Shown here piece by piece: positions 40,143 through 59,769 of a stretch of 64,000 nucleotides of DNA. The stretch spans positions 1 through 64,000 of the forward strand of contig JAGUWD010000001.1 of the NCBI GenBank assembly GCA_020062545.1, in the 5' to 3' direction. Position 1 is the first letter of the stretch; every line of letters begins with the position of its first letter. The DNA comes from Thermodesulfovibrionales bacterium (GTDB taxonomy: Bacteria; Nitrospirota; Thermodesulfovibrionia; Thermodesulfovibrionales; Dissulfurispiraceae). Under the pieces are notes generated by a model. It was not told the origin of the DNA, made no database searches, and saw nothing but the letters and a program-made list of their open reading frames with translations. The position numbers were made by a program, and so were the translations under genes.

Positions 40143-41374
40143 CAACCAGGAATTTCCTCTGGGGCGTAGCCACATCCGCCTTTCAGCTCGAGGGCTCCCC
40201 TCATGCCGACTGGGCGTCATGGGATTCCATACTGGACTCGAAGCCGGATGTTACAAACCATTATACTCTATACAAAGAAGACCTTTGTCTGCTTAAAGAC
40301 CTCGGCGTTAACGCATACAGGTTCTCTCTCGAATGGAGCAGAATACAACCGAAAGAAAATATATGGGATGAAAACGCCATTGCCCATTATCAGGACATAA
40401 TAAACATCCTTCTTGAAAACAATATAGAGCCCATGATCACGATCCATCACTTCACTCATCCACTCTGGTTTATCAAAAAATATCCGTGGCATGAAGATGC
40501 AGCTACAGAAAAATTCTTAAACTATGTAGAAAAGATAACATCGGCAATACAGGGTGTGAAATACTGGATAACATTTAATGAACCTTATGTCCTCCTGCTC
40601 GGAGGTTACCTCGAAGGCTGCATGCCTCCCGGCATAAAGGACGTGTCTTTAGCAGTAAATGCGCTGAAAAACATCTTCGCATGTCATGGCAGTGCATATG
40701 ACATTATTCATTCCAGGATACCCCATGCAATGGTGAGCGTTGCACACAATATGGCTGCCCTTGCACCATGGAAGAGATGGAGCCCTATGGACAGACTACT
40801 CTCAAAAATCGCGAAATATTTTTATAACCATTCTCTGCTTGACGCTTTTCTTACCGGGACAATGCAAATAAAATTTCCGTTTAAAAGTCCTATAGATATC
40901 GATTTGCCGATAAAAGACAAGCTCGACTTCTTCGGCGTCAATTATTACACGAGAGTTCATATGAGATTTAACCCATCCAAAAAAATGGGTGTTGAATTAA
41001 GGCACAGGGATATCGACGGCTACGGGCTGACAGATATGGGATGGGAAATACATCCTCATGGCCTCGAAAAGGTATTGCGCTATGCATCGAGGCTCAATGT
41101 CCCCATCATAATAACTGAAAACGGCATAGCGACCCGAGATGACCAGAAAAAAATAAAGTTCATGAAACGCCATATAGATGTCATTGAAAAGTGCATCAAA
41201 GAAGGCCTCGATGTAAGGGGATATTTCTACTGGTCGCTGATTGACAACTATGAATGGCTGCAAGGTCTTGATGCAAGATTCGGACTTTACAAAGTGGATT
41301 TCGATACACTAAAACGTAAGCCTACAAACGCAGCAGCGTATTATTCGTATCTTATAAAAAGCAGGAATTTTTAA
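40127..41374 (+). CDS. family 1 glycoside hydrolase (beta-glycosidase)
   Basis: 415 residues, no signal, so cytosolic. Retaining GH1 enzyme with acid/base Glu in ITFNEPY and nucleophile Glu in IITENGIA. It also has the N-terminal FLWGVATSAFQLEG strand and FYWSLIDNYEW near the end. Substrate is probably a beta-glucoside or beta-galactoside. It could recycle glycolipid headgroups or stored sugars given the glycosyltransferases nearby, but that is inference. The first residues (SNEPAT) are encoded by repeat DNA, so the true start may have been reshaped by the insertion. Confidence 0.92.
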   Translation: MSNEPATRNFLWGVATSAFQLEGSPHADWASWDSILDSKPDVTNHYTLYKEDLCLLKDLGVNAYRFSLEWSRIQPKENIWDENAIAHYQDIINILLENNIEPMITIHHFTHPLWFIKKYPWHEDAATEKFLNYVEKITSAIQGVKYWITFNEPYVLLLGGYLEGCMPPGIKDVSLAVNALKNIFACHGSAYDIIHSRIPHAMVSVAHNMAALAPWKRWSPMDRLLSKIAKYFYNHSLLDAFLTGTMQIKFPFKSPIDIDLPIKDKLDFFGVNYYTRVHMRFNPSKKMGVELRHRDIDGYGLTDMGWEIHPHGLEKVLRYASRLNVPIIITENGIATRDDQKKIKFMKRHIDVIEKCIKEGLDVRGYFYWSLIDNYEWLQGLDARFGLYKVDFDTLKRKPTNAAAYYSYLIKSRNF

Positions 41375-41654: not shown

Positions 41655-43409
41655 ATGAAGCTTACGAAAGGGATTATTACAGTTTTGGCAGCAGCGTTAG
41701 CTGTTGCAATATCAGTTACGGGTTCTTATGCCCTTACAATCTATCCCATTGACAGGGCGGCGATACTTGCCGGACAGAGATTTGACTTTAAGGTGGAGTT
41801 TGACAGGGTGGTAAACATTCAGGATATAAAAGTGACTATTAACGGGAAGGATTACACCAGAGTATTCGGTAAAAATGCTGAATTCATCGAAAAAGAAAAG
41901 GGTGTGAATCCCGAGGCATCTGCCATAATCCTGCGGGATGTGGAGATTAAAACACATGGTAAATATACGGTAGTTGCGGATGACGGCATGAACAGAAAAG
42001 TGGTCGCATGGGAGGTCTACCCCATAAACAGGGAAATCAAAAAGGCAAAGAATATCATTCTTATGATAGGCGATGGTATGAGCATCGGCCATAGAACTGC
42101 TGCCCGTATCCTCTCCAAGGGGATAACAGAAGGCAAATATCATAGCAAACTTTCAATGGACGATATGCCGCATATGGCGCTGGTGGGAACTTCCGGCGTT
42201 GATTCAGTAATAACAGATTCTGCCAATTCCGCCTCTGCCTATGCAACAGGGCACAAGTCTTCTGTCAATGCTCTCGGTGTGTATGCTGACCGCACACCTG
42301 ACCCTTTTGACGACCCAAAGGTAGAGACTATTACAGAATATGTGAAACGTACACGCAAAATGGCAGTAGGCATAGTAACAGATGCGGAGGTGCAGGATGC
42401 CACTCCTGCTGCAATGGCTGCCCATACACGGCGTCGCGCCACAAAGGCTGAGATTACACAGATGCTTTTTGATGTGGATGTCGATGTCTTAATGGGCGGC
42501 GGCTCTGCCTATTTCCTGCCCATGTCAACACCTGGCTCAAAGAGAAAGGATAATACTGACTTTTTCAATGTCTTCCGCAATGCCGGCTATACAATAGCTA
42601 CAACTAAAGCAGAACTGAGCGATGCGGCCTCAAATCCAAAGACCATGAAGCTTCTGGGACAGTTTCACACAGGCAACATGGACTGCGCATTAGACAACCT
42701 CTTCCTCCGCAAGGGAACGACTGATAAATTCCCTGAACAGCCTGGACTCGTGGAAATGACGAAAACAGCTATTGATGTGCTTTCGCGCCATAAGAACGGC
42801 TTTGTGCTTATGGTAGAAGGAGCACTCATAGACAAGGCATCGCATCCTCTGGATTGGGAGCGTGCTGTGATAGATACTATACAATTTGACAAGGCCGTGG
42901 AGGCAGCAAAGGGTTTTGCGAAAAAGAGGAAGGACACATTGATACTGGTAGTTGCCGACCATACCCATGGAATTAACATTGTCGGCACTATTGATGACAA
43001 TAAAGAAGCAGAGCAGATGCGTGATAAGATCGGTGTTTATGCCGATGCGGGTTATCCAGATTATAAGGACGAAGATAAGGATGGCTATCCCGACAGCATT
43101 GATGTGAGCAAACGGCTGGCTGTATTCTTCAATAATTTCCCTGATTACTATGAAACATTCCGTCCTAAATTAGACGGCAGGTTTGTTCCTGCAGTTAAGA
43201 ACGAGAAGGGTCATTATGTAGCAAACGAAAAGTATAAGGATGTCCCCGGTGCAGTGCTGAGAACAGGTAATCTGCCCCGCAAAGCCAGCGACGGGGTTCA
43301 CACGGCAGATGATGTGGTATTAACCGCTGACGGTCCTGGAGCCGAGAGGGTTCATGGATTCATGGACAATACAGAGGTCTTTCGTGTGATGGTGAATGCC
43401 CTGCGTTAG
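41655..43409 (+). CDS. phoA: alkaline phosphatase with N-terminal extra domain
   Basis: Secreted phosphomonoesterase releasing phosphate. 584 residues with signal peptide (about 1-26). An extra beta-rich domain (about 27-125) precedes the catalytic domain. Metal and nucleophile motifs: NIILMIGDGMS (Asp140), SVITDSANSASAYATGHK (nucleophile Ser189), VEGALIDKASH, VVADHTHG, and a late GVHTADDV His. Residues 472-483 (DEDKDGYPDSID) form an EF-hand/dockerin-like Ca loop inside the domain, suggesting Ca-dependent stability. RBS AGGAGG; four-element PhoB array upstream. First gene of an apparent operon with a periplasmic protein and an ABC cassette. Confidence 0.92.
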   Translation: MKLTKGIITVLAAALAVAISVTGSYALTIYPIDRAAILAGQRFDFKVEFDRVVNIQDIKVTINGKDYTRVFGKNAEFIEKEKGVNPEASAIILRDVEIKTHGKYTVVADDGMNRKVVAWEVYPINREIKKAKNIILMIGDGMSIGHRTAARILSKGITEGKYHSKLSMDDMPHMALVGTSGVDSVITDSANSASAYATGHKSSVNALGVYADRTPDPFDDPKVETITEYVKRTRKMAVGIVTDAEVQDATPAAMAAHTRRRATKAEITQMLFDVDVDVLMGGGSAYFLPMSTPGSKRKDNTDFFNVFRNAGYTIATTKAELSDAASNPKTMKLLGQFHTGNMDCALDNLFLRKGTTDKFPEQPGLVEMTKTAIDVLSRHKNGFVLMVEGALIDKASHPLDWERAVIDTIQFDKAVEAAKGFAKKRKDTLILVVADHTHGINIVGTIDDNKEAEQMRDKIGVYADAGYPDYKDEDKDGYPDSIDVSKRLAVFFNNFPDYYETFRPKLDGRFVPAVKNEKGHYVANEKYKDVPGAVLRTGNLPRKASDGVHTADDVVLTADGPGAERVHGFMDNTEVFRVMVNALR

Positions 43410-43416
43410 GAAACAG

Positions 43417-43863: not shown

Positions 43864-43873
43864 GGAGCATAAT

Positions 43874-45792: not shown

Positions 45793-45830
45793 TGCTGCAG
45801 GAAGCCTTCATCTAACAGAGAATAGGCAAT

Positions 45831-45870
45831 CGTAACAAAAATTTAATCCCTCCTTAATACTCATGTAACC
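45831..45870 (+). promoter_or_regulatory. PhoB-box array 3
   Basis: Four elements at 11-bp steps: CGTAACA (45831), TTTAATC (45842), CTTAATA (45853), TGTAACC (45864). A -10-like TTATCAT follows. A perfect dyad CATGTTA-A-TAACATG (45883-45897) lies at the expected transcription start. It drives the PHP/glycosyltransferase/DedA operon. Confidence 0.83.
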
Positions 45871-45931: not shown

Positions 45932-46621
45932 ATGTTATTGTGTGACTTCCATATACACACAAAATACTCCGACGGTTCGGTGGAGCTGAAAAAAACAATT
46001 GACCTTTACGGCCAGGCAGGGTTCGATGTAATAGCAATAACAGACCATGTGGTCAACGGCGACAACTCCATCGGAAAACTCGCCCATCGCTTTAAACTAT
46101 CTGTCACAGCTTCCAACTTTGACGAATATATATCAAATATAAAATACGAGGCAGAAAGGGCATGGAACAAGTATGAAATGCTCGTAGTTCCCGGTGTAGA
46201 AATCAGCAAAAACTATATCTCACCTGAAAAATCCGCCCATATTCTCATCATTGACATAAAAGATTTCATCCCTGCCTGTCTGAACTATGAAAAGATATTT
46301 CTTGAGGCAAAGCAGCAGGACGCCCTTATAGTCGCCTGTCATCCGCACCATATGTCCGATATGAGCAGGGACACCCTATTCCTCTGGAACAACAGGGACA
46401 AGTATGCTAAATACATAGACGCATGGGAGATTGCCAACAGGGATGATGTATTCAATGTAATCAGTCTTAAGAAATACCCGTACATAGCAAACAGCGACTT
46501 CCATAAAGCCCGGCACCTGTATTCATGGAAGACACTCTTGAACTGCAAGAAGGATATCGAATCTGTAAAACATTGCATAAAACATAACAAAGGGGTTGCT
46601 ATAACGCTGTTCAGGAATTAG
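45932..46621 (+). CDS. PHP-family metal-dependent phosphoesterase
   Basis: 229 residues, no signal. PHP motifs: CDFHIHTKYSDG (HxH), AITDHVVNG, a Glu in VPGVEISK, ACHPHH and a late NSDFHK. These residues bind up to three metals and hydrolyse phosphoesters in characterised members (nucleotide phosphatases, histidinol-phosphatase, polymerase PHP domains). The substrate here is unknown. It heads a Pho-box operon whose next gene is a membrane glycosyltransferase, so a phosphate-containing lipid or sugar intermediate is a reasonable guess. Confidence 0.85.
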   Translation: MLLCDFHIHTKYSDGSVELKKTIDLYGQAGFDVIAITDHVVNGDNSIGKLAHRFKLSVTASNFDEYISNIKYEAERAWNKYEMLVVPGVEISKNYISPEKSAHILIIDIKDFIPACLNYEKIFLEAKQQDALIVACHPHHMSDMSRDTLFLWNNRDKYAKYIDAWEIANRDDVFNVISLKKYPYIANSDFHKARHLYSWKTLLNCKKDIESVKHCIKHNKGVAITLFRN

Positions 46622-46690
46622 GCAAGAGGCTATAGGCAATAGGTGAGATACAAATAAATGAAATACTTTAACTAACAGAAGGAGGGACCT

Positions 46691-47938
46691 ATGGAAATAT
46701 TTTACATCTTTGCAGGCATAACAATCTTCGGACTCATAGCTTATGGACTACAGATATGGGCAGTGCGGTCAACATTAAAGAAAAATAATGGAGCAATACT
46801 CCAACACTCCAATTCTCCATATCCCCCTATTTCCATCCTCAAGCCTCTCAAGGGTCTCGATGACAACCTGTTCGACAATCTCGCAAGCTTCTGCACGCAG
46901 GATTATCCCGAATACGAAATCATATTCTCGCTTCAGGACCACAATGACCCTGCATATAAAGTAGTAAGAAAAATAAGAGATAAATATCCTGAAAAAAATA
47001 TCTCCATAATAGTCGAAAAATGCGATATAGGACTTAATCCGAAGGTTAACAACCTCATCCCTGCATATAGGGCATCCCGGTATGATTATGTGCTTATCAG
47101 CGACAGTAATGTAATGGTAGATAAAGACTACCTGAAGGAAATAGTCAAGCACATGAAAGACCCTGATGTCGGCCTTGTTAGTAATGTTATAAAAGGTATT
47201 GAAGGCAACACCATTGGCTCCATATTCGAAAACCTCCATCTGAACTCCTTTATTATAGGAAGTGTCTGCTTTTTAGATAGATTTCTGAAAATGCCGTGCG
47301 TAATCGGCAAATCAATGCTCATGAGGAAAAAAGACCTTGAAACTATCGGCGGATTCAAGGCAGTAAAAGATGTCCTTGCAGAGGATTATGTTATAGGGGA
47401 AAAAATTCATAGAATGGGAAAGAAAGTTGTTCTGTCGAATTATACAATTAGTAATGTAAATGAATACTGGGGTATAAGAAGATTCCTCAACAGGCATACA
47501 AGGTGGGGGAAGCTCAGATGGAGGCTTGGAGGAATTAAGTATTTTTCCGAATTGCTCGGCAATCCGGTGTTCATGTCCTGCTTGCCGATATTACTGTGGG
47601 AGCCGTCGAGGATAACAATTTCCTTTGCGCTTCTTGTCGGTTCCATAAAAGTCCTTGGCGATTACTACCTCGGCACTATAATAAGAAAAAATGAATTCGA
47701 AAAAACAGAATCATCACATTCCATAAACTCCATACCACCATTTTATTATCTGTTGTCGCCAATTAAAGACCTGCTCATCGGGTTTGTCTGGTTTGTCCCC
47801 ATATTAAGCAACACCGTTGTGTGGAGAGGGAACAGGTATATCATCGGCAAGGATTCGATGCTCTCACCCTGCCCGGAAACTGGCATGTGGGCGTGGAGAT
47901 ACAGGATAGTTGATGCAATAAAGGCAAGGATTGCATAG
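46691..47938 (+). CDS. ceramide-glucosyltransferase-like (GT21/HpnI-type) membrane glycosyltransferase
   Basis: 415 residues: N-terminal membrane helix (about 1-22), GT-A domain with PISILKPLKGLDDNL, the metal-binding region ISDSNVMVDKDY, AEDYVIGEKI and RHTRWGKLRW (the (Q/R)xxRW motif), then C-terminal helices. It matches the ceramide glucosyltransferase/HpnI family, which adds a sugar to a lipid at the membrane. Under a Pho-box array it is a candidate for making a phosphate-free glycolipid. The acceptor (diacylglycerol, hopanoid or other) cannot be told. RBS AAGGAGGG. Confidence 0.85.
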   Translation: MEIFYIFAGITIFGLIAYGLQIWAVRSTLKKNNGAILQHSNSPYPPISILKPLKGLDDNLFDNLASFCTQDYPEYEIIFSLQDHNDPAYKVVRKIRDKYPEKNISIIVEKCDIGLNPKVNNLIPAYRASRYDYVLISDSNVMVDKDYLKEIVKHMKDPDVGLVSNVIKGIEGNTIGSIFENLHLNSFIIGSVCFLDRFLKMPCVIGKSMLMRKKDLETIGGFKAVKDVLAEDYVIGEKIHRMGKKVVLSNYTISNVNEYWGIRRFLNRHTRWGKLRWRLGGIKYFSELLGNPVFMSCLPILLWEPSRITISFALLVGSIKVLGDYYLGTIIRKNEFEKTESSHSINSIPPFYYLLSPIKDLLIGFVWFVPILSNTVVWRGNRYIIGKDSMLSPCPETGMWAWRYRIVDAIKARIA

Positions 47939-47975
47939 CCATCAAATTCAAGACAACCAAGTGCAAGGGGGCTTT

Positions 47976-48179
47976 ATGTGGGAATATGGTTTTCGTGATG
48001 AGATATTCGAAATAGTAATTAGGGTGAAACACAATCCATGCGCTGACCCGGTTTCGATCAATAAAGTATCGCAATCCATAGATGACCTTATTGATGAATT
48101 CCAAAAGAAAGTTAGTGACATAATGGATTACGAATACAAAGGAAATTCTAAGAAATTATGTCCATCCAGCAAGACTTAA
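47976..48179 (+). CDS. small unrecognised protein between glycosyltransferase and DedA genes
   Basis: 67 residues from ATG 47976, with AGGGGGC upstream. A longer start at 47931 is possible. Sequence is hydrophilic with two Cys (in KHNPC and KKLC) and alternating charged/hydrophobic residues (FRDEIFEIVIRV) suggesting a small alpha-beta fold. Its end overlaps the dedA start by 22 bp. No family recognised. Confidence 0.5.
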   Translation: MWEYGFRDEIFEIVIRVKHNPCADPVSINKVSQSIDDLIDEFQKKVSDIMDYEYKGNSKKLCPSSKT

Positions 48180-48790
48180 TACAGCAATTCCCCTATTCGG
48201 GACTCTTTATCCTTCCCATCCTCGGAAGTTTCGGACTCCCAGTCCCTGAAGAAGCAATCCTTATTATATGCGGGGTGATGATTTCGAAAAAAGTCGTAGA
48301 GCCTGTTCCGGCATTTCTTGTAGTCTATTCCGGAGTACTGATTAGTGATTTCATCATATTTTCTCTCGGGAAAAAATACGGGCGTATGCTCGCAACACAT
48401 AAAAAACTTCACTGGCTGCTTCCACCGGAAAAACTTGCTGCCACAGAGGCCAAATTCAAAAAATTCGGCCCGTATATAATACTGTTTGGCAGGCACCTTA
48501 TAGGATTCAGGACACAAATATTCTTGGTATCCGGGATCATGGGAATTCATCCCGGAACATTTATCATGACAGATGCCATAGCAGCAGCGATCACGGTCTC
48601 AATTATGCTCGCGGCAGGCTATACAGGCGTAGGACTGATCCGTTATCTGGATATAAAAAATATTCCTCTGCCGTATATAGCGATTATTTTATTCATAGTA
48701 CTGTTTATTGTCTATTCACTTTACAGACACTTTCGGCGGACGCAGAACAGGAATTCACGAAGGTTGCTTGCAGAAGGTATCGACGGATGA
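48158..48790 (+). CDS. DedA/SNARE-associated (VTT-domain) membrane protein
   Basis: 210 residues with four to five membrane helices. DedA-family marks: FGLPVPEEAIL (re-entrant segment with paired acidic residues), GVLISDFIIFSLGKKYGR, FKKFGPYIILFGRHLIGFRTQ and a glycine-rich SGIMGIHPGTF. DedA proteins are linked to undecaprenyl-phosphate or phospholipid flipping and membrane homeostasis. In this Pho-box operon it could recycle a lipid carrier or flip remodelled lipid. The next gene overlaps it by 4 bp (ATGA). Confidence 0.88.
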   Translation: MSIQQDLIQQFPYSGLFILPILGSFGLPVPEEAILIICGVMISKKVVEPVPAFLVVYSGVLISDFIIFSLGKKYGRMLATHKKLHWLLPPEKLAATEAKFKKFGPYIILFGRHLIGFRTQIFLVSGIMGIHPGTFIMTDAIAAAITVSIMLAAGYTGVGLIRYLDIKNIPLPYIAIILFIVLFIVYSLYRHFRRTQNRNSRRLLAEGIDG

Positions 48791-49485
48791 AATGCTTATT
48801 TTCCCGATATGCGCTTACCTTGGTTGTTTTGCTTCAGTTCTGCATTACTCAAGCTGATCGGGCCGGGGCTGATCAGGCAGGTTATATCTCCTTTGACATG
48901 GAAAGGATATCGGAAAAGAATATTCTTCCACGCCACTGGCGTCTCATTGTTCATGCAGGGAGCGCAGACCTCGGAGTCGTATCCGAAGGCGGCGAGCATG
49001 TCCTGTATATGAAATGCAAAGAATCGTCTTTTTCCATCGAGCGAAAGGCTCAGGTCGATAGCGCTGAATATCCATATATCATCTGGACATGGAAGGCGAT
49101 CAAGATTCCAGCACACGGCGATGTGCGCGTGCGCGATCGCAACGACCAGGCACTTCAGGTTCTCGTGGCTTTTGAGAACAGAAAAGTTATAAGTTATGTG
49201 TGGGATTCCAATGCACCGGCAGGCACAATCTCCGATGAATCCATCGGATGGCCTTTCAATCTTGCAGTAAAAGTAATTGTCGTAAGGTCAGGGCATGCAG
49301 ACACCGGCAAATGGATAACCCAAACAAGAAATATCCATAAGGATTATAAAGCGCTTTTCAACGAACAACCGTCGCATATTACGGGCATCAGGATTCAGAC
49401 AAATACCCAATATACAAAGGACTGCGCAGAAGGAATGGTCAAGGGCATTATATTCAGGAAAGCATTATCAGCAGCAGCACCTTAG
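48787..49485 (+). CDS. exported DUF3047 protein
   Basis: 232 residues with an N-terminal signal peptide. The mature domain has HWRLIVHAG, YPYIIWTWKAIKIP, DVRVRDRNDQALQVLVAFE, ISYVWDSNAPAGT and KWITQTRNIHKDYKALF, the pattern of DUF3047, a periplasmic beta-sandwich family without known function. Last gene of the Pho-box operon. Its co-expression with a glycosyltransferase and DedA suggests an envelope role. Confidence 0.75.
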   Translation: MKCLFSRYALTLVVLLQFCITQADRAGADQAGYISFDMERISEKNILPRHWRLIVHAGSADLGVVSEGGEHVLYMKCKESSFSIERKAQVDSAEYPYIIWTWKAIKIPAHGDVRVRDRNDQALQVLVAFENRKVISYVWDSNAPAGTISDESIGWPFNLAVKVIVVRSGHADTGKWITQTRNIHKDYKALFNEQPSHITGIRIQTNTQYTKDCAEGMVKGIIFRKALSAAAP

Positions 49486-49497
49486 CTGCAACCAAAA

Positions 49498-49526
49498 ATT
49501 AACCCTATCTTAATAATCGTGTAACA
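49498..49526 (+). promoter_or_regulatory. PhoB-box array 4, upstream of chemoreceptor
   Basis: ATTAACC (49498), CTTAATA (49509), TGTAACA (49520) at 11-bp steps. A -10-like TGTATCTT follows at about 49533. It drives the chemoreceptor gene alone. Confidence 0.83.
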
Positions 49527-49598
49527 TTTTTCTTGTATCTTTATTTAGTTCGATGTGATAAGGCAAGAATTGCATAATTGACTGCAAAGGAGAAATTA

Positions 49599-51284
49599 AT
49601 GATTATTAGAAATTTAAAAAACGGGTTCGATAACCTGAAGATAGGGTATCGGTTATTATTACTGGTTATTTTTATGTCTGCAATGTCGATAGGTATTGGT
49701 GTATTGGGCATAATTGGCATGAAAAACAGCCTCTCTGGATTGGATGATGTCTATAAAAATAATGTCGTAAATCTTCAGGAACTAAAGATTATCGCCGACA
49801 TGTATGCGGTGAATATCGTCAGCACTATCCAGAAACTAAGAGACAACACCCTGTCATGGGAAGAAGGCCGCAAAAATGTTGACGAGGCAATAAGAATAAC
49901 ATCTGATAAATGGAAGACATATACATCAAAACATCATACGGCAAAGGAGAGAGAGCTTATAGAACAGACGCAGCCTTTAATTGAAATTGCAAACACACCA
50001 ATTAACAAGCTTAAAGACATCTTGCAAAAAGAAGACAGACAGGCACTTACAAATTTCTTCATAGATGAGATTTATCCCACTGTGGAACCAATATCGCAAA
50101 AATTTGCCGAATTGATAAGTTTTCAGCTAAATAACGCAAGGGATACCTATAAGCAGTCGGAATCGCGTTATGAAACAATCCTTACAACTTCACTAATCGC
50201 AGTTGCAGCCGGCATATTGACAGCCCTCGTAGTTGCTTACTGGATAGTCCAGGGTATAGTACGTCCCTTAACCGATTTGACATTAAAAGTAAAACGCATA
50301 GCTGACGGGCATCTCGATGTGAAAGTGGATTATAACAGCAAGGATGAAATAGGTCTGCTCGCTTGTGATATGAATAAAATGGTTGTCTCCTTCAGCAGAA
50401 TAATTAATAGCATACTCACATCAGCTAACAATGTAGTATCCGCAGTAGATGTATTGAGAGCGCGGGCTGGAAAAACATCTGATGGCGCAAAAAACCAGTC
50501 TCTGCAGGCATCCCAGATAGCCACGGCAGCGGAGGAGATGAGCCAGACCATAACCGACATAGCAAAGAATGCATCGGTGGCGCAGGATTCAGCCCGGGAG
50601 GCAATGGACACGGCATCAAAGGGTAAAGAAGTGGCAGATGGAGCAGTGGAGGCGGTAAACAGGGTTTACACATCCACTGTGGAGCTATCCACAATGATAG
50701 GGAAACTGAACAACAGGGCAACAGAGATAGGGGATATAGTAACGGTAATCAAGGACATAGCAGACCAGACAAACCTTTTAGCCCTTAATGCCGCAATAGA
50801 GGCAGCCCGGGCTGGAGAACAGGGAAGAGGCTTTGCGGTAGTTGCCGATGAGGTGAGAAAACTTGCGGAGCGGACTATAAAGGCAACTGTAGAGATATCC
50901 GAAAAAATAGAGGCTGTTCAGACAGAATCTTCACATACAACAAAATCCATGGAAGAAGCATCGGAAGAAGTTACAAAGGCAAATGAATACATAAAACAGG
51001 CAGGCGACTCTTTATACTCTATCGTAGAGTCTGTACAGAAAGTCCGCGACCAGATAACCCATATAGCAACAGCAGTAGATGAGCAGTCGGCAGCATCGGG
51101 AGAGGTGGCAAGGAATATAGAGATGACATCGGCTGTAGCAATGGAGATGGAAGCGATGGCTGGTGATGTAATGCATGAGGTAAATGGCCTGACAGGCATA
51201 GCAACGGAGTTGAAAAATTCAACAGCAGGCTTTAGGACAAACGGTAACGGTAAATATTCATATGAAGATAGCTATACCCGATGA
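49599..51284 (+). CDS. methyl-accepting chemotaxis protein
   Basis: About 561 residues from ATG 49599 (AAAGGAG upstream; an in-frame TTG seven codons earlier is unlikely). Membrane helix (about 18-38), a four-helix-bundle periplasmic ligand domain (about 40-190), second helix, HAMP, and a cytoplasmic signalling coiled coil whose hairpin tip is [28 protein letters not shown]. It would bias swimming or twitching toward or away from a ligand. A PhoB array upstream indicates phosphate-regulated taxis. Its last 23 bp overlap a metallophosphoesterase remnant. Confidence 0.93.
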
Positions 51285-51387
51285 TATCCACGGAAATATA
51301 GAGGCGCTGAAGACTACATATAATGCAGCCCTGAGTCGGAATAGGGCAATTATGGCGATGTTTAACGCAACTATAACATTGCTGTAA
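51262..51387 (+). pseudogene. N-terminal remnant of a calcineurin-like metallophosphoesterase
   Basis: A 41-codon frame starting ATG 51262 encodes [20 protein letters not shown] and then diverges to a stop at 51385. DIHGN followed by EAL is the first metal-binding motif of YfcE/calcineurin-type phosphoesterases, with Asp replacing the usual Ser in SDIHGN. Nothing of the remaining motifs follows. PhoB array 5 overlaps its end, so the array probably once drove, or replaced, this gene. Confidence 0.55.
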
Positions 51388-51400
51388 TATCGATGTAATC
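51361..51400 (+). promoter_or_regulatory. PhoB-box array 5
   Basis: Four elements at exact 11-bp steps: TTTAACG (51361), TATAACA (51372), TGTAATA (51383), TGTAATC (51394). A -10-like GATATAA begins at about 51408 and the ATG is at 51421, so the leader is extremely short or absent. Confidence 0.83.
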
Positions 51401-51420
51401 TATATGTGATATAAAAAATC

Positions 51421-53856
51421 ATGACCGAGATTTATAAGGTTGATCTCCATGTGCATTCCAGTCATTCCAATAAGCCCTCCATCTGGGCGCTGAGAAAATT
51501 CAATTGTCCAGAAAGTTACACCGCTCCTGAATACCTATATAAAATCGCTGTCAACAGGGGCATGAGCCATGTAACGATAACAGACCACAATTCCATAGAC
51601 GGCGCCATTGAGATAGCACACCTTCCCAATACATTCATAAGCACCGAAGTAACCGCATACTTTCCAGAAGACGGCTGTAAAGTCCATATCGTTGTACTCG
51701 ATATAAATGAAGGTGTCTTCGGAGATATAATGCATTTGAGAAAAAACATTTACGAGCTTATTGCCTACCTTCAAAGCAAGGGCATCATGCATTTCATAGC
51801 CCATCCCCTTTATGACATGAGCGGAAAGCTCTCAGCAGAGACAATAGAAAAATTGCTGCTGCTTTTTGAGGTCATTGAGATAAAGAACGGCTCAAGGGCA
51901 TCCCGCTATAACCGACTTGTAGAAAACATTGCATCTTCACTTACGAGGGAAAAGATGGAGACCCTTGCGGATAAGTACAATATACAGCCTTATGGCCGGA
52001 ATCCCTGGATTAAAGCGGTTGTTGGAGGCTCAGATGACCACAGCGGTTTTTTCATTGCCAAGACATATACTGCATCCAAAAGCGGGGCAACTATAAAAGA
52101 TTTCATGAATTCCATAAAAGACAGGCGATCATGGGCTGCAGGGGATGACGGCAATGCACTCATGCTCGCACACAGCATCTATGGCATTGGATACAGGTTC
52201 TTCAAAGAAAAAATCGAAGGCAAAAAAGCCGGCTCAATGCCTTTTATTAATGCCCTGATGAAAAGGGTCTTCAATCCGTCTCAGGGTCTATCCCTCTTTG
52301 ACAAATTAAACCTCTTTATAAGAAAGAACCTTCCGGAGGTATACAATAACGGCAAAACCTTTGAAGAAATCCTCGACAGAGAGGCAAAGGCACTGCTCAA
52401 TGACCCGAAATTCCTCTCATCAATAAGCACGGAGGACATTAACAGGAGGGTCTTCTCTGTGACAAGCTATCTTATAAACAGGCTTATATACATTTATACA
52501 GAAAGGCTCGCAAAAATGCACTTCCCTGCCGGCATTATGAATCTGGCAAACTCATTAAGCACAATCGGACTCATTCATCTGCTTGCATCTCCCTATTACA
52601 TCGCCTTTTACCACCAGCATAGAAGCAAGTCCCTCATAAGAGAGCTTGAAAGGGCTTTTATGTCTGCAGGCAACTTAGAAAAAGATCAGAAAATAGCCCT
52701 TTTTACGGATACCCTTCATGAGATAAACGGAGTGGCCATTACTATAAAAAGGCTTATAGCTACGGCAAAAAGGAGAGGCATCGAACTGGTGGTCATCACC
52801 TCAAGCAAGGAGGAGACATCATTTAAAAACGGTATTATGAACTTCAAATCCATCGGCGATTTTGCCCTTCCTGAATATCCTGAACTCAAACTGCATTCCC
52901 CTCCCCTTCTCGATGTAATCGATTACTTTGAGAGGGAAGGATTTACGAGGATACACGCAAGCACTCCTGGAACCATGGGGCTTGTCTCTCTTTTCATATC
53001 CAAACTCATGGACATCCCCATATCAGGCACATACCATACCGATATTCCCCAATATGTGAGGAGTCTCACCAACGATGTATTCCTCGAAAATATCGCATGG
53101 AATTATATGATATGGTTTTATAACCTGATGGAAGAGGTAATGGTGCCTTCTTCAAGCACAAGAAAACAGCTTATAGACAAGGGGCTGGTTGCTGAGAAAG
53201 CAAAGCCTTTGCCGAGATGGGTTGATACAGAAATGTTCTCACCGGTAAAAAACAATCCCCGCTTCTATGAGAAATACAGATTAAACGGGGGCATTAAATT
53301 CATATATGCGGGAAGAGTCTCGAAGGAGAAAAACCTGGAGCTTTTATCCGACGCCTTCAGGGAAATAACGGATTCGGGATTGGAGAGCAATCTCATCATA
53401 GCAGGAGACGGGCCGTATAGAAAGGAGATGGAGCAGGAACTGAAAGGCTATCCGGCAGTATTCACAGGCTTTCTTTCCGGAAAAGAACTTTCTACTGCCT
53501 ATGCCTCGGCAGATGTCTTTGTCTTTCCGAGTACCACAGATACATTCGGCAATGTTGTCCTTGAAGCGCAGGCATCTGGGCTTCCTGTAATCGTATCCAA
53601 TGAGGGAGGGCCAAAGGAATTGATGAGGGACGGCATTACAGGAATAGTCACAAAGTCCGATAGTAAAGACGCCCTTGTTAATGCCATGATGTTTTTCGTT
53701 AACGACAAAAACAAAATTATCCAAATGGGCAGGAATGCGAGGCAGTTTACAGAAACAAACGGTATTAATGTGAAAGACGCCTACAGCACTATACTCGGGA
53801 GTAATCCAGGTGATATAGAACAATGCACGCCGCAAGAAATACCGGTTCAAGTATGA
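51421..53856 (+). CDS. PHP phosphoesterase - GT4 glycosyltransferase fusion
   Basis: 811 residues. The N-terminal PHP domain (about 1-245) has VDLHVHSSHSN, TITDHNSIDG, FIAHPLYD and GGSDDHSG. A middle region (about 245-425) includes hydrophobic helices (SLSTIGLIHLLASPYYIAF) that may bind membrane. The C-terminal GT4 domain (about 430-790) begins KIALFTDTLHEINGVAITIK and includes YHTDIPQYVRS, YAGRVSKEKN, FPSTTDTFGNVVLEAQASGLPV. The GT4 half resembles the SqdX/Agt/MgtA lipid glycosyltransferase group. Fusion of a phosphoesterase to a lipid-type glycosyltransferase under a PhoB array suggests dephosphorylating an acceptor then glycosylating it. That chemistry is inference. Confidence 0.85.
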   Translation: MTEIYKVDLHVHSSHSNKPSIWALRKFNCPESYTAPEYLYKIAVNRGMSHVTITDHNSIDGAIEIAHLPNTFISTEVTAYFPEDGCKVHIVVLDINEGVFGDIMHLRKNIYELIAYLQSKGIMHFIAHPLYDMSGKLSAETIEKLLLLFEVIEIKNGSRASRYNRLVENIASSLTREKMETLADKYNIQPYGRNPWIKAVVGGSDDHSGFFIAKTYTASKSGATIKDFMNSIKDRRSWAAGDDGNALMLAHSIYGIGYRFFKEKIEGKKAGSMPFINALMKRVFNPSQGLSLFDKLNLFIRKNLPEVYNNGKTFEEILDREAKALLNDPKFLSSISTEDINRRVFSVTSYLINRLIYIYTERLAKMHFPAGIMNLANSLSTIGLIHLLASPYYIAFYHQHRSKSLIRELERAFMSAGNLEKDQKIALFTDTLHEINGVAITIKRLIATAKRRGIELVVITSSKEETSFKNGIMNFKSIGDFALPEYPELKLHSPPLLDVIDYFEREGFTRIHASTPGTMGLVSLFISKLMDIPISGTYHTDIPQYVRSLTNDVFLENIAWNYMIWFYNLMEEVMVPSSSTRKQLIDKGLVAEKAKPLPRWVDTEMFSPVKNNPRFYEKYRLNGGIKFIYAGRVSKEKNLELLSDAFREITDSGLESNLIIAGDGPYRKEMEQELKGYPAVFTGFLSGKELSTAYASADVFVFPSTTDTFGNVVLEAQASGLPVIVSNEGGPKELMRDGITGIVTKSDSKDALVNAMMFFVNDKNKIIQMGRNARQFTETNGINVKDAYSTILGSNPGDIEQCTPQEIPVQV

Positions 53857-55133
53857 AAAAGAGGCTGCATATCTTTAATCCATTCATATACATAACCCCC
53901 TTCTTTAAAAACCGGATACCCGGCCAGTTGATAATTCAATATACCGACAGATGCAATGCAAGATGTCCCCAATGCGGCATGAGGGTCACGGAGCAGTTCA
54001 GACGTTCCATGCTCGATATGGATGTTACAAAAAAGATCATAGATTCTGCTGCTGAAAAGGGGATCAAAGCGCTATCCTTCACAGGCGGCGAGCCAATGAT
54101 CTTTCTTGACAAGATAGTTGAACTGCTGAAATACGCCCATGATACCGGAATTAAATACACAAGGACAGGGACCAATGGTTTCATATTCATGAATCCTGAC
54201 AATCCTGATTATGAAGAGAGGATAACAAAGATTGCCGGGGCACTAACAGAGAGCAACCTTTATACATTCTGGATAAGCATAGACTCTTATTGTCCAGATA
54301 CACACGAGAATATGAGAGGGCTTCCTGGAGTTATATCCGGCATTAAGAAGGCATTGCCTATATTCCACAAACACGGTATATACCCTTCTGCAAATTTAGG
54401 AATAAACAGGAATATGGGAGGCTCACCACCGCCCTCCATATCAAATCCTGTAGAGTTCTATGAGTCCTTCAGGGATGCATTCAGAAGATATTACGAATTC
54501 ATAATTGGCCTGGGCTTTACCATGGTGAATGCATGTTATCCCATGAGTATTGATAATGGCAATGGACTGGATGCGGTTTATGGCGCCACATCGGAATCCC
54601 CTGTGGTGCAGTTCAGCAGTGATGAAAAGGCGCTGGTGTTCAAAGCGCTATTGGACACCATACCTGAGTACAGGGATAAGATAAGGATATTTTCTCCAAG
54701 GGTCTCTTTGTATTCCCTCATAAGGCGATATACTGTGGGTGAAGAATATTGTTACCCCTGCAGGGGAGGAATTGATTTCTTTTTTATCGATGCCAGGGAC
54801 GGCAATACATATCCATGCGGATACAGGGGCAAAGATAATTTGGGGAAATTCTGGGATCTCGACATGGAAAAAATTGATAAAGTCCCATCATGCAGAAAAT
54901 GCGACTGGGAGTGTTTTATAGACCCCTCGGAACTACTTGGCCCCCTTCTCTCCCTTATGAAAAAGCCCCTTGCCTTTTTTGAGAGGGCAGTAAAGGACAG
55001 CGATTATTTCAGGATCTGGATGCAGGACATCAAATACTTTTCTGCATGCAATTTTTTTGATGGAAGGATTCCGCCGGATTATAAAAGGCTGGCGGATCAT
55101 AAAAAACCGGTAGTATTCAAAATGGAGAAATAA
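53853..55133 (+). CDS. radical SAM protein with C-terminal Cys-rich (SPASM/twitch-like) region
   Basis: 426 residues from ATG 53853, which overlaps the previous stop (ATGA). The [4Fe-4S]/SAM motif is CNARCPQC, followed by FTGGEPM, the glycine-rich SAM strand, and SIDSYCPDTHENMRG. The C-terminal part has CYPCRGG, YPCGYRG and CRKCDWEC, suggesting an auxiliary cluster. Such enzymes modify peptides, sugars or lipids. Substrate is unknown. It sits between the PHP-GT4 fusion and a secreted protein, so headgroup or exported-product modification is plausible. Confidence 0.82.
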   Translation: MKKRLHIFNPFIYITPFFKNRIPGQLIIQYTDRCNARCPQCGMRVTEQFRRSMLDMDVTKKIIDSAAEKGIKALSFTGGEPMIFLDKIVELLKYAHDTGIKYTRTGTNGFIFMNPDNPDYEERITKIAGALTESNLYTFWISIDSYCPDTHENMRGLPGVISGIKKALPIFHKHGIYPSANLGINRNMGGSPPPSISNPVEFYESFRDAFRRYYEFIIGLGFTMVNACYPMSIDNGNGLDAVYGATSESPVVQFSSDEKALVFKALLDTIPEYRDKIRIFSPRVSLYSLIRRYTVGEEYCYPCRGGIDFFFIDARDGNTYPCGYRGKDNLGKFWDLDMEKIDKVPSCRKCDWECFIDPSELLGPLLSLMKKPLAFFERAVKDSDYFRIWMQDIKYFSACNFFDGRIPPDYKRLADHKKPVVFKMEK

Positions 55134-55136
55134 ACA

Positions 55137-57335
55137 ATAAGTTTATTCCGAAAACATAACCGGATAATTCTATTCTCACTTCTTTTTATCCTCGTCCTTG
55201 CATCTGTCCATACTTCATGTTTTGCATCATACGATGCACAGAAGCTGAATTCCATAAGCATCATCGCAAGCAAAAATCTTTTGGAAAACCCTATTACAAA
55301 AACAACTATAGATGATGTTCAAAATCTCTTAAGGCTGGGGGTTAAAAATGTTACGGTATCGATAAACAATTTAGATGCCCATGTGCAGATTGTCCTTTCT
55401 GAAATTAATACTGGAAGCAAAAACATGCCATCCCGTTTTGCTGCAAAAAGAAGTTACCACTATCTCGAATATCCGGATCACGAATATCAATGGATCTCTC
55501 ATTGTATCAATGGAAAGGTGATTTTAAAACTGAATTCCATGTCTTATCAGGGAATAAGCTTTGGGCTTTATGGGCTGCTTCAGGAGAAGCTGGGTTTTAA
55601 ATTCTATCATCCCAAAAGGACTATAGTGCCTTCACATAAAAAATGGCCTCTGCCTCCGGAATTTAAATGGAAGGCATCACCGGTATTTGATAAAAAAGGC
55701 TTTCACTTACATACTCTCCATCCCATCGAGCTTGCCGAGCAATTGCACAATCCACAACATCCCCATGCCCTTAAAGACATAAAGGAATACATTGACTGGC
55801 TCGTGAGGAACCAACAGAATACATTCCAGTTTTATCTGCTCAGGGATATTGACCGCTCGCGCTGGATTCAGCATGCAAGGGATTTTGTATCCTATGCTCA
55901 CAAAAGGGGAATTCTCACGGGTGTCGAGATTTCCATGTTCACCCTCCAGCAGAATGCCTTCCAGACAATTAAGCCCGTTAGATTTTTCTATCCTTATAAA
56001 AAACAGATCGACAATACCCTTTCGTGGCTTTTCAATGTAGGTTGGGACTTTGTCACTGTCGATTTCAGCATGGGGGAATATCTGCCTGACATGGGAAGGC
56101 TTATGCCCGAAGCGAGGGATTATATAGTCAGACAGATTTCAGAAAAATATAACACCAAGATAATGTTTACAACCCATGTCATCCCTGACCACGCCGATGT
56201 GTATATGCCTCAAAACATGAAGACTGGGGTCTTAATCCATACAGTGATGTTTTATTCCATTGACGAGCCAAAAGCGCCGGTATACGGGAATAAAAACCAG
56301 CGCTTCATGCTCCAGATAGCAATAAGAGAGAATAAGAGGCAGGAGACATGGTATTGGCCGGAAGCTGCATACTGGGTATCCTTTGACAACTCTGTTCCCC
56401 TCTTTCTCCTTCCATACCTTGATGCAAGATGGTCTGATATGAATCTTATGAAAAATATAGGCATAGATAGCCATATCACCTTTAGTTCGGGATGGGAGTG
56501 GGGTTACTGGCTTATAGACTGGAGCATAGCCCGGTGGTCATGGGAGCATGTGGAAAACGGCGTAACAAAGAAATCCCATCCATTGAGCATTCTAAATGAT
56601 TTATTCCCCGATACAAATATTGAACACTTATGGGCAAAGGCACTTGAACTTCAAAACAGATATTTAAAAGAAATGGAATTGATCAGGTTTGTATCTGCCA
56701 TAGATCCATCGGCAGAACTGCCCTGGCCCTTCAACAAGCCTTTCCAGCCCCGTCTTCCCTTTAAATACAAATGGCTCCTCAAAAAGGCATCGGATAAGGA
56801 AGCTGTGCATGTTTTAAATAGTTATGTAGCACTGCTGCATGATTATGCCGGCAATATGACTTCACTGACAGAAGGATTGGAATTCGAATCAAAGAGATTC
56901 TTTTCCAAAAAAGAAAACCGCTCTCCTGAGCTTAGGTTGATAATGGATGAATTAATCAGAGGTCTTAAGGTAACGGCTTTAAGGGCAGAACACAGGGCAT
57001 TGACCATAAAAGCGCTGGTATCTCAAAGAAAGAAGCAATACCGGTGGCAGCCAGTGCCTCGGGAAACCTTGTTTTTCCTGCAAGAGGCTTCATCAGTGCG
57101 GCAGAAGGCACAGTCTCTCGTAAAGTTGCAGGAAGGCATTTACCGCTATCCCATAGACTTGATTGCAAGGCAGAGAAACAGCCTTACTGCATATGATTTT
57201 GGATATCTATATCCTGTCAGCAACCTGTTTTTCTGGGAGCGCGAGGAAGGGCAGGTCAGAGACAGGCGCTTTGACGCCTTTTACATGAACATCTGGGATT
57301 TCATAAAGATTACGGGCGTCAAGAGTCTGTTCTGA
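55137..57335 (+). CDS. exported glycoside-hydrolase-like protein, probable ATA start
   Basis: The clear frame from TTG 55281 (684 residues) extends upstream in frame to the previous stop (55131-55133). The added codons encode a perfect signal peptide (LFRKHNR, then IILFSLLFILVLASV, cleavage near SCFA-S). No ATG, GTG or TTG lies in that extension. GGAG is spaced correctly from ATA at 55137, giving about 732 residues. The N-terminal domain (YQGISFGLYGLLQEKLGFKF) resembles GH67/GH20-type N-terminal domains. The middle is barrel-like (HARDFVSYAHKRGILTGVE). No catalytic pair can be assigned. Third gene of a Pho-box operon. Confidence 0.7.
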   Translation: MSLFRKHNRIILFSLLFILVLASVHTSCFASYDAQKLNSISIIASKNLLENPITKTTIDDVQNLLRLGVKNVTVSINNLDAHVQIVLSEINTGSKNMPSRFAAKRSYHYLEYPDHEYQWISHCINGKVILKLNSMSYQGISFGLYGLLQEKLGFKFYHPKRTIVPSHKKWPLPPEFKWKASPVFDKKGFHLHTLHPIELAEQLHNPQHPHALKDIKEYIDWLVRNQQNTFQFYLLRDIDRSRWIQHARDFVSYAHKRGILTGVEISMFTLQQNAFQTIKPVRFFYPYKKQIDNTLSWLFNVGWDFVTVDFSMGEYLPDMGRLMPEARDYIVRQISEKYNTKIMFTTHVIPDHADVYMPQNMKTGVLIHTVMFYSIDEPKAPVYGNKNQRFMLQIAIRENKRQETWYWPEAAYWVSFDNSVPLFLLPYLDARWSDMNLMKNIGIDSHITFSSGWEWGYWLIDWSIARWSWEHVENGVTKKSHPLSILNDLFPDTNIEHLWAKALELQNRYLKEMELIRFVSAIDPSAELPWPFNKPFQPRLPFKYKWLLKKASDKEAVHVLNSYVALLHDYAGNMTSLTEGLEFESKRFFSKKENRSPELRLIMDELIRGLKVTALRAEHRALTIKALVSQRKKQYRWQPVPRETLFFLQEASSVRQKAQSLVKLQEGIYRYPIDLIARQRNSLTAYDFGYLYPVSNLFFWEREEGQVRDRRFDAFYMNIWDFIKITGVKSLF

Positions 57336-57352
57336 TAACACACCGCAATGTT

Positions 57353-57392
57353 TTTCACAGAAATGTAAATTGGATTTCACGGCCATGTAACA
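57353..57392 (+). promoter_or_regulatory. PhoB-box array 6, upstream of OlsF-like gene
   Basis: Four elements: TTTCACA (57353), TGTAAAT (57364), TTTCACG (57375), TGTAACA (57386), each 11 bp apart. A -10-like TATTAT follows at about 57402. The preceding operon ends at 57335. Confidence 0.8.
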
Positions 57393-57449
57393 TTCGCTCC
57401 TTATTATATTATTTAAACGATTTATCTTTAAAGCGAGGTGTTGATTGCC

Positions 57450-59303
57450 ATGCACAAGACACAGGTAGAAGGAATGGACAACATGCCTTTTGCGCTGAAT
57501 ATCAGGCAAAAGGGCTTCATAGGCAGGCGCCTCTTGCCGCACATTATAAGTGCTGTTGAATGGGCGCTCGCATTGCAAGAGCTTAATCGCAGGTATGCAG
57601 AATTTCAGAAGATCAGGGACGAACGTCCCTTTGCAGATCAAGCGCTCGAATTTCTTAACATCAACTATAAGGTGGCAGATACGGAAGTTTCGCTCATTCC
57701 TGCAAAAGGTCCGGTTATTATCATTGCCAATCACCCCTTTGGCGGACTGGAAGGGCTTATCCTTGCGTCCATACTTCGTTCAGTCCGCACCGATATAAAG
57801 TTTATGGCAAACTATCTGCTGACACGCATACCCGATTTCAGGGATATGATCATCTCTGTGGACCCATTTAAGGGGAGAGATTCAGTTAAAAGGAACATCA
57901 GGCCGCTGAAAGAAGCCATCCAGTGGGTAAGAGACGGAGGAACACTGGTGATATTCCCAGCCGGAGAGGTCTCTCATATCAATATAAACCGCAGGGATAT
58001 CACAGACCCGCAGTGGAGCGGCACCATCGCACGTCTCATAAGAAAGACCTCTGCAACTGTTGTCCCTGTATACTTTTCCGGCTTCAACAGCGCCGTATTT
58101 CAGGCAGCAGGACTGATACATTCCTTTTTGAGAACCGCCTTATTGCCGAGGGAGCTTCTCAATAAGACCAACCATACCATTCAGGTCAGGGTCGGCAATC
58201 CCATCCCGTTCAAAAGATTGGATGCCTTCCATATCGATCAGGACATGGTGGATTACCTGCGGATTCGCACTTATGTGCTCAAAGGCAGAAATAGCAGGAA
58301 AACCAGTATCAGAAGAATACCATTATTCGGAAAAGGGATATTCGAACAGATCGTCCCTCCCCGGAATACCAGGCTGTTGGCAGAGGAGGTAGGGAGATTG
58401 TCATCCCTTGCAGAAAGCGGAGAGTATGCGGTCTGTGTCTTTAAGGGCATGCAATTCCCAAATCTCTTGCATGAAATCGGCAGGCTCAGGGAGATAACAT
58501 TCCGCATGTCCGGCGAAGGCACTGGAAAGGCTATAGACCTTGACCACTTCGATCCCCATTACCTGCACCTCTTTGTCTGGAACAAAGAAAGGCAGGAGGT
58601 AGTGGGCGCCTATCGCATCGGAATGACAGATGAGATTATGGAGCGTTACGGAATGAATGGACTCTATACCAGCACTCTCTTTAAATACAGCAGATCGCTC
58701 CTCAATCAAATCGGCCCTGCTCTCGAACTGGGGAGGTCATTTATCCGCCCAGAATACCAGAAAAACTACACTCCTCTCCTCTTGCTCTGGAAGGGCATAG
58801 GACGCATTGTTGTGGAAAATCCCCGCTACAAAACACTCTTAGGCCCTGTCTCCATCAACGACGAATACGATATGCTCTCAAAACAGCTTCTGACGGCATT
58901 CCTGAAAATGAACAACTATATCCCGGAACTGGCCAGGTTTGTAAAACCCAGAAGGCCATTCATGCCCCGAGCTACAAGAGGTATCGATGTGCAGACAACA
59001 TGCAGGGTTGTCAGGAACATCGAAGATGTCTCCTCACTGATAGAGGAGATAGAATCCGACCATAAGGGCATTCCCATCCTCCTCAAGCAGTATTTGAAGC
59101 TCGGCGGCAGACTCATCGGCTTCAATATCGATCCGCAGTTCAGTAATGTTCTGGATGGACTAATATTGGTTGACCTCACCAAAACCGAGCAGCGGATACT
59201 GGAGCGGTATATGACAAAACAAGGGGCTGAGGCATTTCTTGCATTTCACAAACAGTTTGCAGATGGCAAATCACTCTCCCGGCAACCTGTTTTAATAATT
59301 TAA
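57450..59303 (+). CDS. OlsF-like bifunctional acyltransferase for ornithine (amino) lipid
   Basis: About 617 residues. The N-terminal PlsC-type O-acyltransferase domain (about 70-290) has ANHPFGGLEG and FPAGEVSHI. The C-terminal domain (about 310-600) is a GNAT-like N-acyltransferase (OlsB/hemolysin type: ITFRMSGEGTGKAIDLDHFDPHYLHLFVWN, VVGAYRIG, ELGRSFIRPEYQKNY). This order matches OlsF, which makes ornithine lipid from ornithine and two acyl chains. Ornithine lipids replace phospholipids under phosphate limitation, in line with the PhoB array 60 bp upstream. ATG 57450 is preferred (GAGG upstream); GTG 57438 is possible. Other lysine- or glutamine-lipid substrates cannot be excluded. Confidence 0.83.
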   Translation: MHKTQVEGMDNMPFALNIRQKGFIGRRLLPHIISAVEWALALQELNRRYAEFQKIRDERPFADQALEFLNINYKVADTEVSLIPAKGPVIIIANHPFGGLEGLILASILRSVRTDIKFMANYLLTRIPDFRDMIISVDPFKGRDSVKRNIRPLKEAIQWVRDGGTLVIFPAGEVSHININRRDITDPQWSGTIARLIRKTSATVVPVYFSGFNSAVFQAAGLIHSFLRTALLPRELLNKTNHTIQVRVGNPIPFKRLDAFHIDQDMVDYLRIRTYVLKGRNSRKTSIRRIPLFGKGIFEQIVPPRNTRLLAEEVGRLSSLAESGEYAVCVFKGMQFPNLLHEIGRLREITFRMSGEGTGKAIDLDHFDPHYLHLFVWNKERQEVVGAYRIGMTDEIMERYGMNGLYTSTLFKYSRSLLNQIGPALELGRSFIRPEYQKNYTPLLLLWKGIGRIVVENPRYKTLLGPVSINDEYDMLSKQLLTAFLKMNNYIPELARFVKPRRPFMPRATRGIDVQTTCRVVRNIEDVSSLIEEIESDHKGIPILLKQYLKLGGRLIGFNIDPQFSNVLDGLILVDLTKTEQRILERYMTKQGAEAFLAFHKQFADGKSLSRQPVLII

Positions 59304-59349: not shown

Positions 59350-59769
59350 ATGAGATTATTCAAAAAGGTTGTAGACATTATTATCAAGCTGATGATACCC
59401 CTTGTGATCCTTGCCCTTATGATGGGTATTGCAAGGATATTCATCGACCTGAAGGTGGTTTTTAAAAGTCCGACAATAGCAGCAGGGTTTGATACCATGG
59501 TGACGAATATACTGTCCATGTTTATTGTTATAGAGCTTCTCAGGAGCATCATCGAATATTTCGAGATACATAGACTGAGGATAACATTTATTGTAGATGC
59601 CGCCATAGTCTTCATTTTAAGAGAAGTCATGATCGGCATTTATCAGCATAAAATGGGGGCAGTGGAGATAGCATCCCTTGCCGTGCTTCTCCTTATCATT
59701 GGTGTTATAAGGACGCTGGCTATCGTGTATTCACCGGATAAAACAAAGGAGGCAATAAATCATGAATAA
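59350..59769 (+). CDS. psiE: PsiE-like phosphate-starvation membrane protein
   Basis: 139 residues with four membrane helices. Features of the PsiE family are visible: an N-terminal basic start (RLFKKVVDIIIK), a central IELLRSIIEYFEIHRLR segment and FILREVMIGIYQHKMG before the last helices. PsiE is induced by phosphate starvation in E. coli, but its biochemical role is unknown. The PhoB array upstream agrees. It overlaps a 30-codon membrane peptide gene by 8 bp. Confidence 0.82.
   Translation: MRLFKKVVDIIIKLMIPLVILALMMGIARIFIDLKVVFKSPTIAAGFDTMVTNILSMFIVIELLRSIIEYFEIHRLRITFIVDAAIVFILREVMIGIYQHKMGAVEIASLAVLLLIIGVIRTLAIVYSPDKTKEAINHE

Follow-up and report, generated by a model that had tools for sequence, protein, structure and literature searches.

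Phosphate-saving lipid remodeling by the phosphoesterase PlcP and the glycosyltransferase (GT) Agt is known from Agrobacterium, SAR11, Pseudomonas, and Methylosinus (PMC9239053, PMC8231724). In Desulfovibrio alaskensis G20, the agt gene (Dde_3613) is required for all of the monoglycosyldiacylglycerol (MGDG) and glycuronic acid diacylglycerol (GADG) made under phosphorus limitation; the olsF gene of this strain is Dde_3661, and agt homologs were reported at E < 1e-100 in >50 related genomes (Bosak et al., PMC5193443). We analyzed a stretch of 64,000 nucleotides (hereafter, the window) from the 2.62-Mb genome of a Thermodesulfovibrionales bacterium (Nitrospirota), in which a PHP-family phosphoesterase is joined to a lipid-type GT in two ways, namely, as a stand-alone PHP gene ahead of a GT21 gene and as a single protein with a PHP domain fused to a GT4 domain. 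As these pairs are conserved, Pho linked, and tied to ornithine-lipid genes, they very probably contribute to an exchange of phospholipids for phosphorus-free lipids in the cell, the PHP reaction itself being a prediction.

An initial annotation made from the window sequence had described a PHP gene preceding a ceramide-glucosyltransferase-like gene, a PHP-GT4 fusion, and a four-element PhoB array before each, and all of these are real (Table 1), the fusion being recognized by Pfam in its GT4 half and by the conserved metal-ligand set in its PHP half. The stand-alone PHP protein scores 32.9 bits against PF02811 (cutoff, 26.4), which places it in the PHP superfamily, and its metal ligands (H7, H9, H39, E90, H103, H137, D189, and H191) are invariant in 18 sequences. 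Its closest solved structure is 2ANU/TM0559 (E = 3e-60), and it is weakly similar to CehA/McbA-type models; an AlphaFold2 model was poor (pLDDT 60) and was not used. It was found in 45 of the 246 genomes of the phylum at 73 to 97% identity and in only 1 of the 18 genomes reached via fusion loci. The GT21 protein, with its DSN, EDY, and RHTRW motifs (the required D..D..(Q/R)xxRW set) and its match to PF13506 (Glyco_transf_21; E = 1.7e-48, 164.8 bits versus a cutoff of 21.7), belongs to the family of ceramide and diacylglycerol (DAG) glucosyltransferases. The PHP gene lies directly before the GT21 gene in 19 of 20 sampled Nitrospirota loci, usually behind a GH1 gene, and the order PHP-GT21-olsF is found in two genomes (G058 and G015). 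A hopanoid function of the HpnI type was rejected: the GT21 protein scores 258 bits against the HpnI model TIGR03472, below its cutoff of 310, and squalene-hopene cyclase was found neither in the window genome nor in 18 others of the 21 PHP-bearing genomes. Because the window genome lacks this cyclase, an HpnI role of its GT21 is excluded, and a hopanoid is not the acceptor there.

The fusion protein carries Glyco_transf_4 and Glycos_transf_1 domains at residues 435 to 775. Its N terminus scores 14.3 bits against PF02811, under the gathering cutoff of 26.4, and the PHP_C model passes its cutoff in one homolog (L101; 22.2 versus 21.3). The N terminus nevertheless has the ordered PHP metal-ligand set (H10, H12, H56, E76, H89, H128, D205, and H207), whose positions are kept in 50 to 53 of 53 homologs (94 to 100%) and which assigns it to the PHP superfamily; a profile-profile comparison with the stand-alone PHP also gave an alignment (90.7% probability). 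The GT4 residues R632, K637, and E715 are conserved in 50 to 51 of the same 53. The AlphaFold model of the fusion is confident (pLDDT 85, pTM 0.81) and shows two lobes joined by a helical linker. A fold search with this model identified the C-terminal part as a GT-B fold (Z of 37 to MshA, PDB code 3c4q; root mean square deviation of 3.0 over 359 residues); only GT-B chains were among the matches listed, and the PHP half thus rests on sequence. The fused GT4 has its top NCBIfam score against the N-acetylglucosamine-phosphatidylglycerol (GlcNAc-PG) synthase model NF053787, at 123.9 bits versus an equivalog cutoff of 480 and mainly over the donor-binding half. The domain is ~31% identical to agt-like GT4s, which puts it in a different GT4 branch. 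With GT21 on one side and a GT4 nearest to GlcNAc-PG synthase on the other, the lipid-type partners proposed in the initial annotation are borne out.

Both sets belong to the Pho regulon, as that annotation had supposed. Their Pho boxes have units spaced 11 bp apart and lie 50 to 100 bp ahead of the PHP gene or the fusion. The 2.62-Mb genome has 14 exact triple-unit Pho boxes, all on the same strand and all within C8:41552-74625 (33 kb), and a backwards control pattern gave no match genome-wide. The genes of this island include phoA, psiE, a sensor kinase/regulator, and, just outside the window, pstSCAB-phoU (read from the sequences); the PHP-GT21 pair and the fusion are thus predicted to be turned on together with the phosphate genes. 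The arrangement recurs elsewhere, with a Pho box 50 to 131 bp upstream of the PHP gene in 19 of 20 Nitrospirota loci. In 15 of 25 close homologs, the fusion is preceded, mostly by 50 to 60 bp, by a box that matches 13 to 14 of 15 consensus positions. By its boxes and its gene pairing, the locus therefore shows the Pho-controlled phosphoesterase-GT pair of PlcP-Agt systems.

Within the phylum, 11 of 246 genomes carry the fusion. It was recovered in 64 further loci when species genomes of many phyla were scanned, with hosts in Nitrospirota, Geobacteraceae, Planctomycetota, Brocadia, Verrucomicrobia, SAR324, Sulfurihydrogenibium, KSB1, and others. Among 199 Desulfovibrionales genomes, ~105 have it, and in 88 of these it is a single full-length match (counted by hand). 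A viral library search returned generic GTs only. Conserved PHP-GT neighborhoods and fusions with Pho boxes, which the initial annotation had named as a check, are thus found in both forms, and this conservation (PHP-GT21 adjacency and the 64 fusion loci) rules out chance pairing. The neighbors of the fusion are rich in lipid genes. They include OlsA and OlsB genes (L081, L083, L084, L100, L118, and L119), GT28 genes of the MGDG-synthase/diglucosyl-DAG-synthase type (L081, L083, L100, L122, and L129), and, directly upstream, relatives of GlcNAc-PG deacetylase (L105, L110, L112, L118, and L119); phosphatidylserine decarboxylase, PAP2 phosphatase, PlsC, and GlcNAc-PG-synthase-like GT4s also recur. 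In Sulfurihydrogenibium (L118 and L119), the operon reads OlsB-OlsA-GlcNAc-PG-deacetylase-like-PHP-GT4-second GT4, and in a Desulfovibrionales genome olsF is 495 bp away from the fusion. The OlsF-like protein of the window matches NF052615 over its full length with both domains present (418 bits, E = 4e-125), under the equivalog cutoff of 620. In some fusions, the GT4 is degenerate or truncated. Those of L122 and L128 lack its catalytic residues and have an intact PHP domain, with a separate MGDG-synthase-type GT adjoining the former, and the KSB1 fusions (L132, L134, and L137) have lost the donor-binding half, kept the PHP domain, and are flanked by intact GT4s and PAP2. This retention suggests that the PHP domain performs a separate step of the pathway in which the GT works.

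Given the Pho regulon, the lipid-GT families, and the ornithine-lipid, MGDG-synthase, phosphatidylserine decarboxylase, PAP2, and GlcNAc-PG-deacetylase neighbors, phosphate-saving lipid remodeling is by far the best reading of the PHP-GT sets. We propose that the window probably encodes two Pho-regulated lipid-remodeling modules similar to PlcP-Agt, in which the PHP part would supply or process a phosphorylated lipid for the GT. Upon phosphate starvation, PhoB would induce PHP and GT21 and the PHP-GT4 fusion along with pst, phoA, and olsF. The PHP halves, whose metal ligands are intact, would hydrolyze a lipid phosphoester (phosphatidate or a phospholipid headgroup) to DAG and phosphate or headgroup-phosphate, the step that PlcP performs in the PlcP-Agt pathway. 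The GT halves would then use a nucleotide sugar to glycosylate a membrane lipid, most likely DAG, giving a phosphorus-free glycolipid, and OlsF would make ornithine lipid in parallel. The parts of this scheme differ in strength. The context argues strongly that the GTs glycosylate a lipid, which is very likely; that the acceptor is DAG is a reasonable expectation; and a putative acceptor-generating phosphoesterase role of the PHP part is plausible though somewhat tentative. More tentative still is the extension that a PHP-type phospholipid phosphoesterase fused to a GT replaces PlcP, so that one enzyme might convert phospholipid to glycolipid and, in Desulfovibrionales as well as in many uncultured phyla, serve as the main phosphorus-saving glycolipid synthase.

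Some points weigh against the PlcP-Agt-like scheme. The substrates known for characterized PHP enzymes are soluble phosphomonoesters, nucleotides, nucleic acids, or phosphotyrosine; the similarity between the two PHP domains is remote (90.7% probability over 82 columns in hhalign); and, as the fused GT4 best matches GlcNAc-PG synthase, its acceptor may be phosphatidylglycerol (PG) rather than DAG in some lineages. The known substrates would suit a PHP part that dephosphorylates a soluble metabolite (sugar phosphate or nucleotide) or serves as a regulatory module, with the GT alone acting on lipid, and the nearest solved relative of the stand-alone PHP, the uncharacterized TM0559, together with its CehA/McbA similarity, is in keeping with this. 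We nonetheless find such an arrangement improbable, since the pairing or fusion is conserved with lipid GTs of two unrelated folds (GT21 and GT4/GT-B), and Pho control together with the persistence of the PHP domain alongside a dead or shortened GT points to a role in the same pathway. CpsB-type PHP phosphatases occur in capsule loci, and the GTs could likewise be imagined to make a polysaccharide or surface glycan under the control of a CpsB/YwqE-like protein-tyrosine phosphatase; this is very improbable, as GT21 is a lipid-GT family and the conserved neighborhoods showed lipid genes instead of any polymerase, flippase, or tyrosine-kinase gene, and we rejected it as unsupported by the neighborhoods.

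The main rival to the PlcP-Agt-like route is chemistry of the GlcNAc-PG type, in which the GT would act first, on PG or another phospholipid, and the PHP part second, or on another head group, so that phosphate or glycerophosphate would leave either the glycosylated lipid or its parent. GpgS/GpgD chemistry of this kind has been established in P. aeruginosa (PMC12713373), the fused GT4 comes closest to GlcNAc-PG synthase in NCBIfam, and the five loci with a deacetylase relative directly upstream fit this order of events. That match, however, is far under the cutoff and lies mostly in the donor-binding half, and the genes seen next to the fusions of Nitrospirota and Desulfovibrionales are MGDG-synthase and ornithine-lipid genes, with no deacetylase among them. 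We therefore consider the GlcNAc-PG-type route unlikely, if less so than the other two, and favor the PlcP-Agt-like scheme.

The phenotype of D. alaskensis bears on this scheme. A single-domain GT4 of putatively agt-like type is rare in Desulfovibrionales, with just 8 of 345 genomes having it, and no PlcP-like metallophosphoesterase turned up in a motif search next to these GT4s in this order. None of the genomes examined is G20, judging from a TRAP-binding-protein search and from CutC identity to 5fau, a solved choline trimethylamine-lyase that is presumably the G20 enzyme (best full-length identity, 89.5%, in G434; of the genomes with a CutC match, 50 were compared). By this measure, the four genomes closest to G20 are G434, G406, G339, and G327, all of which have the fusion and none of which has the single-domain agt-like GT4. 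The gene order in G434 is CutC-fusion-OlsF, presumably collinear with the G20 tags 3282-3613-3661, where 3282 is the CutC tag. From the rarity of the single-domain GT4, the uniform presence of the fusion in the G20 relatives, and this collinearity, it is likely that Dde_3613 is a PHP-GT4 fusion, an identification made by distribution and gene order rather than from the sequence of Dde_3613. A member of the fusion family may already have been knocked out in this strain, its PHP domain having gone unnoticed.

Comparison with the sister species G087 shows how the fusion is placed in the window. An 8-kb block with the fusion, the radical SAM gene, u684, and OlsF is missing from G087, where 669 bp stand instead between flanks 92 to 94% identical to the window, and relative to G087 the block replaces the end of a metallophosphoesterase gene (Table 1). 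Three same-genus genomes were searched for the fusion and OlsF, and neither was found. These absences indicate that the glycolipid-type and ornithine-lipid genes arrived as one unit. Two further blocks of the window have no counterpart in G087, namely, 41375-45832 (4.5 kb, with phoA) and 47940-48814 (a DedA gene). The GH1 glycosidase beside PHP-GT21 might act on glycolipids, by analogy with plant SFR2, a GH1 galactolipid enzyme. Separately, a Pho box at 49499-49525 lies directly ahead of a methyl-accepting chemotaxis protein (49578-51284), which may point to phosphate-starvation taxis.

TABLE 1 Features of the PHP-GT region, in window coordinates
Feature	Position	Strand	Basis and remarks
GH1 glycosidase	40127..41374	+	Domain match and NEP/TENG catalytic motifs; conserved neighbor upstream of PHP-GT21 in many Nitrospirota
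Alkaline phosphatase	41655..43409	+	Behind Pho boxes 41552-41589; in the 4.5-kb block 41375-45832
Four-unit Pho box upstream of PHP-GT21	45832..45869	+	Pattern match; GTAAC-N6-TTAAT-N6-TTAAT-N6-GTAAC
Stand-alone PHP-family metal-dependent phosphoesterase (predicted), 229 aa	45932..46621	+	PF02811; 2ANU/TM0559 match
GT21 glycosyltransferase, ceramide-glucosyltransferase/HpnI-like, 415 aa	46691..47938	+	PF13506; hydrophobic segments at both ends
Metallophosphoesterase gene remnant, first 27 codons	51262..51342	+	tblastn; gene intact in G087 and in same-genus L056:5301-6017
8-kb block (fusion, radical SAM, u684, OlsF)	51330..59298	+	Missing in sister species G087
Four-unit Pho box upstream of fusion	51362..51399	+	Pattern match; TTAAC-N6-ATAAC-N6-GTAAT-N6-GTAAT (one unit ATAAC)
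PHP-GT4 fusion, 811 aa	51421..53856	+	Domains, motifs, and model; PHP 1-240, helical linker ~246-413, GT-B/GT4 422-799
Radical SAM protein	53823..55133	+	Overlaps end of fusion gene; same family beside fusion in 16 loci
u684, 684-aa protein of unknown family	55281..57335	+	No Pfam or NCBIfam match; homologs beside fusion (L051, L082) or PHP-GT21 (L071)
OlsF-like bifunctional ornithine-lipid synthase	57438..59303	+	NF052615; acyltransferase + GNAT
PsiE-family phosphate-starvation protein	59350..59769	+	PF06146
Histidine kinase + response regulator of island	60573..62172	+	Relatives flank fusion in L046, L050, and L052

The initial annotation had called the arrangement a new form of lipid remodeling. 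The replacement of phospholipids by MGDG, GADG, and ornithine lipids is already known, and what stands of that claim is the PHP half: no description of a PHP-GT fusion was found in the literature searched, where the substitution of PHP for PlcP, its fusion to a GT, and the breadth of this family appear to be undescribed. Anoxic and groundwater microbes produce much phosphorus-free glycolipid. If PHP-GT proteins work without PlcP, then surveys that use plcP as a marker would overlook a large share of phosphorus-saving bacteria, including Desulfovibrionales, Nitrospirota, Planctomycetota, Geobacteraceae, and Verrucomicrobia; PHP enzymes would gain a lipid role, and a bifunctional enzyme would explain the Desulfovibrio agt phenotype.

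Compared with known systems, the stand-alone PHP has sequence relatives in TM0559 (2ANU) and the PHP/CehA-McbA phosphoesterases, and we know of no GT paired with these. The GT21 of the window shares its fold family, motifs, and membrane segments with HpnI, ceramide glucosyltransferase, and the processive Pgt; from HpnI it differs in scoring below the cutoff and in the lack of a hopanoid acceptor in its genome. GpgS of P. aeruginosa (PMC12713373) has a GT4 related to that of the fusion, and a GpgD-like deacetylase adjoins the fusion in Verrucomicrobia and Sulfurihydrogenibium; GpgS, however, has no PHP domain, its product is a phospholipid, and the fusion scores far under the cutoff of its family. 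The agt of D. alaskensis is, like the fusion, linked with olsF and probably belongs to the same protein family by distribution, while a PHP domain goes unmentioned in its description (PMC5193443). With PlcP-Agt, the PHP-GT sets have in common a starvation-linked phosphoesterase and GT (GT4 in PlcP-Agt), an operon organization, and a phosphorus-free glycolipid product, predicted in the case of PHP-GT. They differ in that the phosphoesterase of PlcP-Agt is a calcineurin-like metallophosphoesterase whereas that of PHP-GT is of the PHP superfamily, fused to a GT4 of another branch in one protein or paired with GT21.

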